Part shown: piece by piece, positions 22,222 to 31,091 of the stretch | Position numbering within the stretch: the stretch's first letter is position 1 | Layout: each line of letters starts with the position of its first letter | Assembly: GCA_947498025.1 (NCBI GenBank) | Contig: CANMJR010000029.1 | Location: 1-37,177, forward strand | Origin: Helicobacteraceae bacterium | GTDB taxonomy: Bacteria > Campylobacterota > Campylobacteria > Campylobacterales > Sulfurimonadaceae | DNA: 37,177 nt | Direction: 5' to 3' | Notes under the pieces: generated by a model | What the model saw: the letters and a program-made list of their open reading frames with translations, nothing else | The model's database searches: none | What the model was told of the DNA's origin: nothing | Program-made: the position numbers and the translations under genes

Positions 22222-24570
<2,349 letters not shown>

Positions 24571-24767: not shown

Positions 24768-25835
24768 TTATATAACTATCGGCATTACAACTGTTTTAAA
24801 GTTTTCATCACTCAATACAAAAGGTAAATTTCCTTCGTTTAGACCTAAACTAAACTCCGAAGAGTTAATAGCATTTAAAAAGTCGAGTAAATATCTACTG
24901 TTTATAGCAATTGTAAATGGTATTGTATATCCTGTAGAAAAATTTATTTCTGTTTTTGCTTCTATATTATCATCACTGAGTGATTCAAAAGTAATTAAAT
25001 CATTTAAAAATGTAATTTTAACATCTGTAGAAATAGTAGTAATTTGCTTAATAGATTCTATCATTACAGATTTTGGTAAAACAAGAGTATTTGCTATTTC
25101 TTTGGGAATTATTCTGGAATACTCTGGAAATTTCCCATTGATTAGTTTTGTAAAAAATGTATATTGGTCTGAATGAATTATTAAATTTGTTTGATCATAA
25201 TAGAGTTCAATATTATCAAAAAACAGTTTTTGAATTTCTATAATAGCTTTTCTTGGAAGTATAATGGAAAGCTCTTGGGAACTCTCTTTAGTAATAGTTA
25301 CAACAGCTAATCTACGAGTGTCGGTTGATGCAAAATTGATGCTCTCATGTTTTATATCTATCAAGGCGCCATTGAGCTCAAATTTTGGATTATTAATATC
25401 AATTGCCGGAGTTATTTTTTTAAGTGAATCTATAAGAAAATGTGAATCTATAGAAATTTGAGATTTTCCCTCATAGTTTGGAAATTCAGGAAAATCACTA
25501 TGAGAGAAAGTAGGTAATTTAAATTTTGAGTGTGATTGAGAAATATATAAGATATCGTTTTTTACCTCTAAACTTATTTCACCATCTTTTAAAATTCTAA
25601 TAATATCTATAAATTTTTTACCGTTTGCTGTTGTACTGCCTTCAGACATTACATTTATTTTATTAGTCGTTACTAAATATCCTATCTCATAATCTGTAGC
25701 TTTGAGGGTTAATATTGAGTTAGATACATTTAAATACACATGCGATGTAATTTGCGAAGTATCTTTTTTTTCTAAAAAAGGTTGAGCATGGTTTAAAATA
25801 TTTTCGATAATCGATTTTGAAACCGTAATTTTCAT
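24768..25835 (-). CDS. dnaN: DNA polymerase III sliding clamp (beta subunit)
   Basis: A 355-residue clamp that tethers the polymerase to DNA. The three repeated clamp domains are visible by spacing: the N-terminal part (MKITVSKSIIENILNHAQPF), the middle domain with the family stretch FASTDTRRLAVV (about 173-184), and the C-terminal part ending PFVLSDENFKTVVMPIVI, with the usual hydrophobic-Met-Pro end. AGGA stands six bases ahead of the ATG. The gap to dnaA holds the probable unwinding site of the origin. Confidence 0.96.
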   Translation of the reverse strand: MKITVSKSIIENILNHAQPFLEKKDTSQITSHVYLNVSNSILTLKATDYEIGYLVTTNKINVMSEGSTTANGKKFIDIIRILKDGEISLEVKNDILYISQSHSKFKLPTFSHSDFPEFPNYEGKSQISIDSHFLIDSLKKITPAIDINNPKFELNGALIDIKHESINFASTDTRRLAVVTITKESSQELSIILPRKAIIEIQKLFFDNIELYYDQTNLIIHSDQYTFFTKLINGKFPEYSRIIPKEIANTLVLPKSVMIESIKQITTISTDVKITFLNDLITFESLSDDNIEAKTEINFSTGYTIPFTIAINSRYLLDFLNAINSSEFSLGLNEGNLPFVLSDENFKTVVMPIVI

Positions 25836-25842
25836 CTTAAAT

Positions 25843-25965
25843 CCTATATATTTATTATAATTTTAGTATGTAGTAGTAGATGCCTGTGAAAATGTGAATA
25901 ACACTCATTCACTCCTATCTCAAGGGTTACAACTGTAACTCTAATACAAGCCTCTCTTTTCACAC
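25843..25965. other. oriC: Replication origin, unwinding part (oriC2-type) between dnaA and dnaN
   Basis: In order on the plus strand: an AT-rich stretch (about 25843-25870), three exact TAG repeats (25871-25879) that match the DnaA-trio motif, a short GC-bearing spacer ATGCC, then two tandem DnaA boxes, TGTGAAAAT (25885-25893) and TGTGAATAA (25893-25901). The order and orientation match the basal unwinding layout known from Bacillus. Further box-like sites on the other strand are TCATTCACT (25905-25913) and TTTTCACAC (25957-25965). The hairpin GTTAC-AACT-GTAAC lies between them. The place downstream of dnaA matches oriC2 of Helicobacter. Confidence 0.8.
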
Positions 25966-26002
25966 TTACTCACTTTATGAATTATATCTTTTTTTTTATA
26001 TT

Positions 26003-27310
26003 TTATGAAGATGATGTTATTTTATTTGTTAATTCTTCAATTTTCACTTTAAAATCTTCATCATTTTTCATAAGTTCATTTATTTTTTTAAGCGTGTGGC
26101 TAATAGCCGTATGGTCTTGCATGCCAAAGTATTGGGCAAGCTGAGGCATTGTATTTTGTGTGAGTTCACGACAAAGATATATTGCAATTCTTCTAGCATA
26201 AACAAGATTTTTGCTTCTTCCTTTTGAGCGGATTTCACTTGGCTTTATATTTAAATCTTTTGAAACACTCTGCACTATTAAGTCAAGTGTTATATTTGCA
26301 CGATTTTCTTGAAGTTGGTCTTTTAATACATTTTTAGTAAAAGCTAAATCAATATCTACATTTATCAGTTGAGAATAAGCATGTAGCTTAGATAAAATAC
26401 CCTCTATTTCACGCACATTACTATCAATTACGGTTGCTATATAATTGATAATATCTTTAGAAAGTTTTACTTTATTTAGTCTGCATTTATTTTCTATAAT
26501 TGCAATTTTTGTTTCAAGTTCCGGTGGATGAATATCTGCAACTAACCCATGTTCAAAACGGCTTCTAAGTCTCTCTTCCAATCCTGCAATTTTTTTTGGG
26601 TGTTTATCAGCTGTTAAAATTATCTGTTTTCCTGCACCTTTAAGGGCTTCGAAAGTGTGAAAAAACTCCTCTTGAATTCCCTCTTTGTTACTTAAAAATT
26701 GAATATCATCTATAAGAAGTACATCACATTTACGGTACTTTTCTTGAAATCGTTCCATTGTTTTGTTTCTTAAATGTCTTATAAAATCGTTCAAAAATTG
26801 TTCAACAGTGGTGTAGATAACAACTTTTCCCTGATTTTGCAGTACATTGCCGGCAGCCTGCATAAGGTGGGTTTTGCCAAGTCCTACACCGCCATAGATA
26901 AAAACAGGATTATAAAGAGTTCCCGGTTTTTCACTCACGCTTTTAACGGTTGCATAGGCGAATTGATTTGAGCCACCAACCATGAAGTTATCAAATGAGT
27001 GCGATGGATTTAAAAGTGAGTGCTGCGTTTTTTCTTCAGTAGGTTTTTTACTTTTTTTACTGTCTATCTGATTTTTCAGTGTTATCATAACACTTACTTT
27101 TGAGCCTGTTTTGACCTCAAAAAGATGTGATATTTTCTCTGTATATTTACTTTTTATCCAGTTTGAGACTAAGGCATTCTGAGCGTAAAATATTGCAAGG
27201 TCGCTTGTTGATTTTTTAGCATCATAAGCTAAGAACTTAATATATCTATTATATTCAATTTCTGTAATCTCTTCTTTGAGTGATTTTAAAACTTCTTGAC
27301 CGATATCCAT
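26003..27310 (-). CDS. dnaA: Chromosomal replication initiator DnaA
   Basis: A 435-residue initiator. Domain I is at about 1-80, a short linker with SKKSKKPTEEKTQ follows, then the AAA+ domain with Walker A GGVGLGKTHLMQA (about 139-151), Walker B VLLIDDIQFLSNKEG and the Arg-finger region RLRSRFEHGL. The C-terminal DNA-binding domain carries the signature MQDHTAISHTLKKI. It binds the boxes on both sides of its gene. AAGG stands close ahead of the ATG. A -10-like TACTAT (27340-27345) overlaps the first upstream box, so self-repression is likely by position. Confidence 0.97.
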   Translation of the reverse strand: MDIGQEVLKSLKEEITEIEYNRYIKFLAYDAKKSTSDLAIFYAQNALVSNWIKSKYTEKISHLFEVKTGSKVSVMITLKNQIDSKKSKKPTEEKTQHSLLNPSHSFDNFMVGGSNQFAYATVKSVSEKPGTLYNPVFIYGGVGLGKTHLMQAAGNVLQNQGKVVIYTTVEQFLNDFIRHLRNKTMERFQEKYRKCDVLLIDDIQFLSNKEGIQEEFFHTFEALKGAGKQIILTADKHPKKIAGLEERLRSRFEHGLVADIHPPELETKIAIIENKCRLNKVKLSKDIINYIATVIDSNVREIEGILSKLHAYSQLINVDIDLAFTKNVLKDQLQENRANITLDLIVQSVSKDLNIKPSEIRSKGRSKNLVYARRIAIYLCRELTQNTMPQLAQYFGMQDHTAISHTLKKINELMKNDEDFKVKIEELTNKITSSS

Positions 27311-27334
27311 AACATGCCTTAATTATTTTTTGTA

Positions 27335-27410
27335 TGTGAATAGTATCTGTTTTTTGCATAAGCAGAGTTAAAAAAAGTGTGAATAGCTAAGATGTGAATA
27401 GTGTGAATAG
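27335..27410 (+). other. oriC: DnaA box cluster upstream of dnaA (oriC1-type)
   Basis: Four identical boxes TGTGAATAG, all in one direction: 27335-27343, 27378-27386, 27393-27401 and 27402-27410, the last two directly joined. An AT-rich stretch (TATATTATTTGTATATAATT, 27411-27430) follows. No TAG-type trio is next to these boxes, so this cluster looks like the binding rather than the melting part of a bipartite origin. It also covers the dnaA and ruvC leaders. Confidence 0.85.
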
Positions 27411-27462
27411 TATATTATTTGTATATAATTTGCAAGAAAATCCACATGTCAAGCAGGAAAAG

Positions 27463-27957
27463 ATGATAATACTAGGAATTGACCCGGGAACAAGAAATAT
27501 GGGTTATGCTCTTATCTCTCTGGATGGTGGTAAAATTTCGCTTGTTGAGGCAGGGCTTATTAAGATGAAGGCAGAAGATTTGCAGTTTCAGATACCTCAG
27601 ATGGTTGAGGGGCTAACTACAGTATTTGAAAATCATAAAATTGATGAAGTGGCGATGGAAGATATTTTTTATGCGCACAATCCTGCCACCACAATAAAAC
27701 TGGCGCAATTTCGCGGTGCAATCATGTTGAAACTTCTCCAAGAGTTCGGACAGTTCCATGAATATACGGCTTTACAGGTAAAAAAGGCTCTTACAGGAAA
27801 AGCAAAAGCCGGTAAGGAACAAGTTGCATTTATGGTAAAAAAACTTTTAAACATAAAAAAAGAGATAAAGCCCCTTGATATTACTGATGCGATGGCGGTT
27901 GCAATAACTCACTCCCAAAGGGTTAGGCTGAAAAACCAAAGTACAACGCTAAAGTAG
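27463..27957 (+). CDS. ruvC: Holliday junction resolvase RuvC
   Basis: A 164-residue endonuclease that cuts four-way junctions together with RuvAB. The acidic active site is visible: Asp in [13 protein letters not shown] (residue 6), Glu in [14 protein letters not shown], and the Asp pair in [12 protein letters not shown]. The frame is open up to 27394, but the family N-terminus begins at the ATG at 27463, which has AGGA four bases ahead. It is transcribed away from dnaA across the upstream box cluster. Confidence 0.94.
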
Positions 27958-28760: not shown

Positions 28761-31091
28761 ATGAAATCTTTATTTTTTTATATATCTGTTGCAGCACTTT
28801 TGTTGAGCGGATGCAATAGCAGCACGGGGAGTTCGTCTACTGTTGTAGCAACGGGGTCAACCGGGGATGTGGGGTTGTTCTTGGATGCACCTGTAGTGGG
28901 GCTGGAATATAGTTCAAAATCACATAGCGGGTTTACAAATTCTAGCGGTTATTTTAATTACAATTCAGGTGAAGAGGTAACCTTTAAAGCAGGGAAAGTA
29001 ACATTAGGTAAAATAAAAGTAACTCCGGCAAATAGTACCGTGACACCTATTAGTATAGTTCCAAATGGTACTATTGATGATACAAGAGTAGTTGAAATTT
29101 TAAGAGTACTCCAAACGCTAGATAGTGATAATAATTCTGCAAATGAGATTGTAATCCCAGCTGTATTAAATAGTACGACTGCTATTGATTTATCAGAAAA
29201 TCACACTAAATTGAATGATTCTCAGTTGGCATCTCTGATTGGAGTAAATAGAACTGCTTTAATCACTGAAACTCAGGCAAAAACTCATTTTAGTGATTCA
29301 TTAAGTAATAAAAGCCAATATGAAACACAATTAGAAAATGACATAAATTATCATGCAAATTATGGTTCAGATTCTGACAATGACAGCTCTGATAATGACG
29401 ATGACAGCTCTGATAATGACGATGACAGCTCTGATAATGACGATGAAGGCTCTACGACCGACGGAACAACCACGACACCTTCGACGGGCGGAACAACAAC
29501 GGGCAGTACTACAGCTACACCGACAACAGGCGGGACATACACACTTCTCGCATGGAATGATTTAGGAATGCACTGCTTTGACGGGAGTGATTTTTCTATC
29601 TTTTCAATACTTCCGCCCTACAACAATCTAAACGCACATCTCATTACCAAAGTAGGAACATCAAACAAACATGTAACCGCAAATGTAACACTCACTTATG
29701 AGTCATTAACTTATAACGGGCATACAAATACACAAAGCAGTACAAAAACGAATTTTTGGAGTTACTTAACTTCTCTTTTTCCAGGTGTATCAAGTGTAAG
29801 CGATATAGGTTTAACAGGCAATGCTACTCCTTCAACAGTTCCGCATGCTATGGCATATAATGTGAGTGGCGGTAAGTGGGAAGCGGATGGAATCCCGATA
29901 GTGAATCGCGATGATAATAACGCAATAAATTACTATCCAATGGTAAGAGTAGTAGCAAAAAACACAGCCGGAACAACTTTGGCAACGGCGGATGTTGTAC
30001 TTCCTGTGAGTGATGAGATGGATTGTAAAAAGTGTCATGCAAGTACAGTAACCTCAACCGCAGCAAGACCGGTAGCCGGCTGGGAAAACTCTGCGGATGC
30101 TTTGAAAGATTATAAACTTAATATTTTAAAACTTCATGATGAGAAGCACCCTATAAATACAGCCGATTTGAGTGCAGTAAAAGCGAAGGGATATGCAAAC
30201 TATCAGGCAAGTTTATATGCAACAGCAAAAGCAGGCACACCGATTTTATGTGCATCATGCCACAGCTCAAATGCATTAGCCACAACCAATATCGGAAATG
30301 CTAAACCGCTTACAACATCACTGCATGCAAAACATGCAAGCGTTATTGACCCTAGTAATGGCTTAACTCTTAATAATTCTACAAACAGAGATGCATGTTA
30401 TAGCTGTCACCCGGGAGCTGCTACGGAGTGTTTGCGAGGTGCCATGGGGAGCGCAAAAAATGCAGACGGTACGCAAATGATGCAGTGTCAAAGTTGCCAT
30501 GGGAGTATGAATGATGTTGGAAATGCGAATCGTACTGGATGGATGGACGAGCCAAATTGTCAGGTTTGTCATCAAAACGGACAAAGATATTCCAATGCAA
30601 TAGTCGGCGGAAGTATGAGAAGCGCACTTGATACAAGATTTGCAACCAACCCAAATACCCCTTCGGCCGGAGTAAGTCTATACAAACTCAGCACAGGACA
30701 TGGAGATTTGCAATGTTCATCATGCCACGGTTCCACACATGCTATATTTCCAAGCACTCATGCTGAAGATAACGTAATAAGCAATCAGATTCAAGGTCAT
30801 AGCGGTACAATTGCAGAGTGTACGGCATGTCATACAACTGTGCCATCAACAACAACCGGCGGTCCACACGGCATGCATAGTGTTGGGCAAGGCTGGGTAA
30901 GCTCGCATCAAAATGTTGCAGAGCGTAATGCTGCGCAATGTACTTCATGCCATGGAGCTGATTACAGAGGTTCTGATTTATCTAAAACATTCAGTGCAAG
31001 AACACTGAGCGTAGAAGGTAGAACTAAAACATTTGCTAAAGGTGCTAAAGTTGGCTGTTATGATTGTCATAACGGTCCAAGCGGCGATTAG
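28761..31091 (+). CDS. Nine-heme c-type cytochrome lipoprotein
   Basis: A 776-residue exported lipoprotein. The signal ends LLLSGC with lipid-bearing Cys18. Residues about 35-150 are a beta-rich module of the type found in surface proteins. Residues 203-230 are an Asp/Ser/Asn repeat and 231-258 a Thr/Gly/Ser linker. From 260 comes a domain starting LLAWNDLGMHCFDGSDF. Nine CxxCH heme sites follow, beginning at 422, 497, 546, 576, 600, 652, 687, 727 and 766, with extra His for second ligands. It should carry electrons outside the inner membrane; placement on the outer membrane is inferred from the lipid anchor and the long flexible linker. GGGAG precedes the ATG. The closest named family is not recognised, and an electron acceptor cannot be told. 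Confidence 0.88.
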   Translation: MKSLFFYISVAALLLSGCNSSTGSSSTVVATGSTGDVGLFLDAPVVGLEYSSKSHSGFTNSSGYFNYNSGEEVTFKAGKVTLGKIKVTPANSTVTPISIVPNGTIDDTRVVEILRVLQTLDSDNNSANEIVIPAVLNSTTAIDLSENHTKLNDSQLASLIGVNRTALITETQAKTHFSDSLSNKSQYETQLENDINYHANYGSDSDNDSSDNDDDSSDNDDDSSDNDDEGSTTDGTTTTPSTGGTTTGSTTATPTTGGTYTLLAWNDLGMHCFDGSDFSIFSILPPYNNLNAHLITKVGTSNKHVTANVTLTYESLTYNGHTNTQSSTKTNFWSYLTSLFPGVSSVSDIGLTGNATPSTVPHAMAYNVSGGKWEADGIPIVNRDDNNAINYYPMVRVVAKNTAGTTLATADVVLPVSDEMDCKKCHASTVTSTAARPVAGWENSADALKDYKLNILKLHDEKHPINTADLSAVKAKGYANYQASLYATAKAGTPILCASCHSSNALATTNIGNAKPLTTSLHAKHASVIDPSNGLTLNNSTNRDACYSCHPGAATECLRGAMGSAKNADGTQMMQCQSCHGSMNDVGNANRTGWMDEPNCQVCHQNGQRYSNAIVGGSMRSALDTRFATNPNTPSAGVSLYKLSTGHGDLQCSSCHGSTHAIFPSTHAEDNVISNQIQGHSGTIAECTACHTTVPSTTTGGPHGMHSVGQGWVSSHQNVAERNAAQCTSCHGADYRGSDLSKTFSARTLSVEGRTKTFAKGAKVGCYDCHNGPSGD
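29382..29444 (+). repeat. Three perfect 21-bp tandem repeats in the cytochrome gene
   Basis: The unit GACAGCTCTGATAATGACGA-T (DSSDNDD) occurs three times exactly, with partial units on each side. It codes for an acidic, flexible linker between the N-terminal module and the heme part. Exact copies suggest recent gain or loss of units; the frame is kept. Confidence 0.9.

Follow-up and report, generated by a model that had tools for sequence, protein, structure and literature searches.

The dnaN-dnaA gap (25836-26002, 167 bp) of the 37,177-nucleotide stretch of DNA analysed here (the window) is very probably oriC2, that half of a bipartite chromosome origin at which the DNA opens. An unwinding site of such an origin had been proposed here by the initial annotation. 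The sequence argues for it through DnaA boxes, a spacer, DnaA-trios and an AT-rich DNA unwinding element (DUE) that match the published order, orientation and spacing, through conservation in relatives and position at a broad local skew minimum, and through the P1 nuclease precedent of S. denitrificans. Comparison of the relatives further suggests that, in most of the order, the distance between two groups of DnaA boxes is kept almost constant.

Probable origin locus and parts of oriC2

The source genome consisted of 2.93 Mb in 102 contigs. Pfam analysis gave the gene order gyrB-dnaN-dnaA-ruvC, with the first three genes on the minus strand and the last on the plus strand, and the ruvC-dnaA-dnaN-gyrB locus of the epsilonproteobacterial bipartite oriC was present in the window. 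The features were as follows.

22222-24549, minus strand: gyrB (Pfam DNA_gyraseB and others)
24768-25835, minus strand: dnaN (three Pfam DNA_pol3_beta domains)
25836-25863: AT-rich part of the putative DUE, between the trios and the dnaN start codon (from AT content)
25864-25868, plus strand: TAGTA, extra trio-like units, placed one base out of the 3-nt register by a 2-base linker (25869-25870)
25871-25879, plus strand: three perfect DnaA-trios, TAGTAGTAG, i.e., 5'-TAG-3' three times on the plus strand (from sequence)
25880-25884: spacer from the proximal boxes to the trios, ATGCC on the plus strand and GGCAT on the minus strand (from sequence)
25885-25892, minus strand: proximal DnaA box 2, TTTTCACA (plus strand TGTGAAAA), with TTCAC core
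25893-25901, minus strand: proximal DnaA box 1, the stronger, TTATTCACA (plus strand TGTGAATAA), which fits the S. denitrificans consensus HHATTCACA (PMC5043019)
25902-25956: linker between the box arrays, poorly conserved in sequence and nearly constant in length in relatives
25957-25965, plus strand: distal inner DnaA box, TTTTCACAC, opposite to the proximal pair, with 66 bp between its core and that of proximal box 1
25966-25974, plus strand: distal outer DnaA box, weak, TTACTCACT, core 76 bp from proximal box 1
25981-25993, minus strand: AAAAAGATATAAT, probable -10 region of a dnaN promoter, with 7 bp between its end and the distal cores
26003-27310, minus strand: dnaA (Pfam Bac_DnaA, Bac_DnaA_C and DnaA_N; PDB match 8btg, a DnaA)
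27335-27409, minus strand: oriC1, a set of four DnaA boxes in one direction, TATTCACA, in the dnaA-ruvC gap
27463-27957, plus strand: ruvC (Pfam RuvC)

Read on the minus strand, the order was TATAAT (25986-25981), 7 nt, two reverse cores (GTGA, beginning at 25973 and 25963), the linker, TTATTCACA and TTTTCACA, GGCAT, CTACTACTA, 2 nt, TACTA, AT-rich DNA, and dnaN. A trio block, a short GC-bearing spacer, two abutting boxes and an AT-rich neighbour in the order and orientation of the basal unwinding system (BUS) of Bacillus had been described by the initial annotation, and the coordinates confirmed all of these. The proximal boxes abutted with an 8-bp step and lay 5 and 13 bp from the trios, both in the Bacillus direction, the 13 bp being the distance from the stronger box (ending at 25893) to the first trio. 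The AT content was 86% over 25836-25870, compared with 65% for the window. The 35-bp stretch at 25834 had nearest-neighbour energies within the least stable 0.05% of the window and ranked fifth in low stability among its non-overlapping stretches.

The box cluster that had been claimed on the other side of dnaA was also found, as four TGTGAATA boxes in one direction at 27335, 27378, 27393, and 27402, in the gap running from 27311 to ruvC. The 63 distinct dnaA-ruvC gaps of relatives contained 2-5 forward and 0-1 reverse TTCAC. The window thus has these features of the epsilonproteobacterial bipartite oriC: TTCAC-core DnaA boxes on both sides of dnaA, and an AT-rich site with a trio and an outward-facing distal pair in a dnaA-dnaN gap adjacent to dnaN. 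DnaA residues I177, L180, and R251 aligned with I190, I193, and R264 of B. subtilis (numbers counted by hand on the alignment), and the protein kept its Walker motifs as well as the single-strand-binding residues and arginine finger expected for a BUS. HobA, a DnaA scaffold of the group, was encoded in the genome. A second full-length dnaA-like gene occurred in two relatives (G027:C4:1737524-1738831 and G165:C13:3191-4462), 56% and 47% identical, respectively, to the dnaA of the window; G165 is listed with 8% contamination, so its second gene may reflect a mix.

The cumulative G-C skew had a local minimum at 24547 and was nearly flat to 27 kb, spanning the locus, a reading that covers one of 102 contigs and is confounded by the flip of gene direction at the locus. 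The closest named relatives (DnaA 97-99% identical) were MAGs titled Sulfurimonas or Campylobacterales. An Rfam search of 25600-27600 gave no family at gathering score; the best sub-threshold match, to AsdA, an antisense RNA of dnaA mRNA, was recorded at 26835-26896 on the plus strand (26.1 bits, gathering 52, E 0.012). Past ruvC and a response regulator, 28761-31091 (plus strand) encoded a multihaem cytochrome-like protein with MtrC/MtrF-like and cytochrome c7 domains.

Comparison with known origins

By the published rules, a BUS needs three or more consecutive trios (3'-NAN-5') and, no more than 16 bp from them, a correctly oriented box, usually in a tandem pair, the commonest distance between stronger box and trios being 10-13 bp; BUS mutations in H. 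pylori gave no transformants (PMC8287927). The window had three consecutive trios with boxes at most 16 bp away in the right direction, and its distance of 13 bp fell at the published 10-13 bp peak. Its tandem boxes, short GC-bearing spacer and trios were like those of the B. subtilis incC BUS (PMC6669920; Pelliciari et al. 2021, PMC8287927). The distal boxes of B. subtilis are essential and act via a loop with helical phasing; they are active in either orientation, and placement 132, 297, or 462 bp upstream also restored activity (PMC6669920), whereas the direction and distance of the distal box are nearly fixed in nature in the present group.

In locus, in boxes flanking dnaA and in the TTCAC core typical of the group, the window was like the oriC of S. 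denitrificans, Arcobacter butzleri, and Wolinella succinogenes (Jaworski et al. 2016, PMC5043019). It shared with them tail-to-tail oriC2 arrays and a dnaA-dnaN gap holding the trio and the opening site, opening being predicted in the window. All three species have trios, and boxes flank dnaA on both sides; P1 nuclease revealed DnaA-dependent opening in vitro in the dnaA-dnaN gap of each, and only in oriC2 (PMC5043019). According to the same source, DnaA loops joining oriC1 and oriC2 were seen by electron microscopy in relatives, and in the three species DMS footprinting confirmed one proximal box rather than two.

The H. pylori oriC (PMC8235120) is similar in its two halves, its opening in oriC2 and its trios behind a tandem pair. 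In contrast to H. pylori, the neighbour of the window's gap is dnaN and the distal pair faces outward, which places the window outside the H. pylori type. In one relative without a dnaN neighbour (L156), the distal box was reversed in direction at about 67 bp (by eye), and we infer that this locus is H. pylori-like. Campylobacter jejuni oriC (PMC6052347) likewise opens in the dnaA-dnaN gap and has twin boxes with a one-base overlap and a degenerate trio; unlike the window, it is reported as probably monopartite and requires boxes in the dnaA 3' end. Since that origin is probably monopartite, oriC1 need not be essential.

The melting part lying ahead of dnaN had been presented in the initial annotation as a departure from the known arrangement. 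In B. subtilis, incC/oriC2 likewise lies ahead of dnaN. As a contrast with H. pylori, which lacks dnaN as the neighbour, the observation holds; it is no exception, since this position is usual in the group (PMC5043019). By its sequence, the window origin appears to be a member of both the epsilonproteobacterial bipartite oriC and the BUS, with predicted opening; it extends a known class by one member, to which the 2016 model carries over.

Conservation of trios, box spacing and TATAAT

Relatives were collected as 170 loci; 11 without recognised dnaN were omitted, and the remaining 159 gave 136 non-redundant gaps, from 82 near relatives, 19 other genera and 35 other families. The near set (110 loci, L001 and L003-L111) was chosen by DnaA similarity, and a few members are probably of other genera (one is titled Sulfuricurvum; L069 appears equal to an other-genus genome). 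Sampling at the phylum level yielded genomes of the same order only, and the spacing counts cover that order. The near-relative alignment contained 79 of 81 reference sequences; L057, with an insertion-interrupted gap, and L065, with the longest module, were left out.

Exact TAGTAGTAG occurred once in the 37-kb window. Allowing up to one mismatch gave 12 matches, against an expectation of 6.0, and the triplet is therefore weak evidence on its own. The loose box-plus-trio pattern had one match in the 2.93-Mb genome and its reversed control also had one, so this pattern is not rare alone. When all elements were combined (TATAAT, distal pair, proximal pair, trio), the composite had a single match in the genome (control 0) and was present in 89 of 147 family genomes, with control matches in 0/147. 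The case for the origin is carried by context, not by single motif pieces.

Perfect CTACTACTA (three CTA) was found behind the box in 80/82 near relatives, 6/19 other genera and 3/35 other families, and across the 136 non-redundant gaps it was found neither on the opposite strand nor in shuffles. Trios were degenerate beyond the near set; when three of five YTD triplets were allowed, 18/19 other genera and 30/35 other families could be anchored. A separate, laxer pattern (three YTD) was less clean, matching 55/82 near relatives and 17/82 on the opposite strand. A constant TACTA followed CTACTACTA at 2 bases in 56/81 near relatives and at 1 base in 24/81, and was altered in 1/81. Past the third trio, the 3-nt register was often broken in near relatives by the 1- or 2-base linker before TACTA. 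The core of proximal box 2, at the same 8-bp step, was TTCAC in 51/82, ATCAC in 25/82, and CT in 2/82, with a pattern misfit in 4/82.

For the spacing counts, gaps were anchored on the proximal box and trios alone, with the distal boxes unused; anchoring failed in 1 of 82 near, 1 of 19 other-genus and 5 of 35 other-family loci. A distal GTGA core lay at 64-67 bp in 77/81 near relatives, 17/18 other genera and 26/30 other families (anchored loci), compared with shuffled means of 2.3, 0.4, and 0.6 and maxima of 7, 4, and 3 (200 shuffles). The outer core lay at 74-77 bp in 80/81, 18/18, and 15/30 anchored loci, so that half of the other-family loci were without it. Counted by group, 14 of the 16 other families that had a usable gap, and 13 of 13 other genera, had at least one locus with the spacing, here on a slightly wider range (62-68 or 72-78). 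Exceptions were L142 (98 bp), L158 (119 bp), and L120 (63 bp). The excess over 66 is 32 in L142 and 53 in L158, close to three and five turns of the helix; nothing is proved by two cases.

No conserved box arrangement was reported among the four species studied in 2016 (PMC5043019), and the kept spacing is either new or was invisible with four species. In the passages searched of PMC5043019, PMC8287927, PMC8235120, PMC6052347, and PMC6669920, neither fixed spacing nor a dnaN promoter was mentioned. The initial annotation missed both the near-fixed 66/76-bp spacing of the distal pair and the TATAAT fused to that pair.

TATAAT followed by 7 nt and GTGA was found in 81/82 near relatives, 10/19 other genera and 3/35 other families (shuffled means at most 0.07). 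The 13-mer AAAAAGATATAAT had 8 copies in the genome, compared with 1 for the reversed control, and all 8 copies had a same-strand ORF (at least 60 aa) starting within 6-145 nt; because 49% of random window positions likewise precede such an ORF, this is moderate support. The promoter scan paired TATAAT with TTCATA (10 of 12), and its 14 sites against 9.0 expected were uninformative by themselves. AAAAAGATATAAT is likely to be part of a dnaN promoter. A start about 7 bases past TATAAT would hit the distal boxes, and bound DnaA should therefore block the predicted promoter; actual repression of dnaN by DnaA is put forward tentatively, at somewhat less than even chance. The conservation suggests that the candidate dnaN promoter is coupled to the origin in near relatives.

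The linker of the near set also contained interleaved inverted repeats (alignment columns 21-67; about 25920-25966 of the window) with paired changes, e.g., GATGTGA/TCACATC and GACGTGA/TCACGTC. For columns 21-29 with 49-57 and 31-40 with 58-67, double changes exceeded those in any of 500 shuffles and reached up to about twice those of slid versions, with pairing in only 66% of cells. An RNA or cruciform stem was rejected: RNAalifold gave box-against-box pairs only, without double change, and the window's own sequence did not keep the pairs (by eye). The palindrome GTTACAGTTGTAAC of the window's linker was discarded as well; it was whole in L004, partial in L003 and unseen in the other relatives printed.

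Competing explanations and proposed mechanism

The region could instead be only a DnaA-regulated dnaN promoter and leader, its boxes and AT-rich DNA serving transcription and the origin lying elsewhere. TATAAT is strongly conserved at a fixed distance from the distal boxes, and the same word stands upstream of ORFs elsewhere in the genome, as this explanation would have it; yet it leaves the trios and proximal pair, fixed beside the AT-rich stretch, unexplained. In other families TATAAT keeps its spacing in only 3 of 35 loci while the boxes and trios stay (26/30 anchored), and relatives open in the dnaA-dnaN gap in vitro (PMC5043019), which makes a promoter without an origin very improbable. 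Opening in the dnaA-ruvC gap (oriC1), with the dnaN side as a mere helper array, would agree with the four good boxes there and with DoriC, which puts the S. denitrificans oriC upstream of dnaA (PMC5043019). It is opposed by the confinement of P1 opening to oriC2 in the three relatives (PMC5043019) and by the 153-bp gap itself, in which no trio block was seen beside the boxes (by eye), and we give it hardly any credence.

The constancy of the 66/76-bp distance might have been inherited without selection, given few indels and boxes held by their own function alone. Common ancestry does link the near relatives, and the 79 sequences in the alignment do not count as independent. Against this, the mean pairwise identity of the linker in the near set was 0.50, yet its length, measured from distal GTGA to the first proximal TTCAC, was within one base in nearly all (58 nt in 12, 59 nt in 61 and 60 nt in 6 of the 79 aligned sequences). 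The spacing also persisted in 14 of 16 other families, where total gap length ran from 121 to 377, and the oriC2 module lay at a variable 4 to 37 nt from the dnaA stop in 80/81 near relatives. The outlier was 1314 nt, in L057, whose dnaA-dnaN gap is 1468 nt and whose inserted stretch looks coding at its start. Inheritance without selection is thus rather unlikely, and functional constraint on the near-fixed distance is quite probable.

For the gap as oriC2, we infer function in the window's organism from its sequence as follows. DnaA would bind the tandem proximal boxes (25885-25901) and be passed onto the plus-strand TAG trios (25871-25879), where it would polymerise via its single-strand-binding motif and arginine finger and open the AT-rich DNA at 25836-25870. 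The opposite-facing distal pair (25957-25974; 66 and 76 bp off) would bring more DnaA through a short, near-fixed loop or wrap. The simplest reading of the spacing may be a B. subtilis-like delivery of DnaA to the trios by a stiffer bridge. oriC1, beyond dnaA, would probably join by a larger loop and be regulatory. The TATAAT, at 7 bp from the distal pair, probably marks a dnaN promoter, which could be blocked by DnaA bound to the distal boxes.

A broader proposal is that oriC2 in most Campylobacterales is a machine of fixed geometry: a DnaA-DnaA bridge, tied to a single helical face and a single loop size, would hold the opposite-facing distal boxes about 66 (and 76) bp from the proximal pair. 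In Sulfurimonas and its near kin, the distal pair would lie at the start site of the putative dnaN promoter, so that a single DnaA assembly would open the origin and also stop clamp synthesis. We regard this proposal as a possibility, with the balance leaning somewhat against it. The placement of the putative promoter offers a testable tie of initiation to clamp supply. The spacing carries more weight than the origin itself, being a distance kept through a linker whose sequence is not kept. If the spacing is real, it would provide a length and phase for direct test and a natural contrast to the flexible loop of B. subtilis, and would serve as a simple origin finder across the order.
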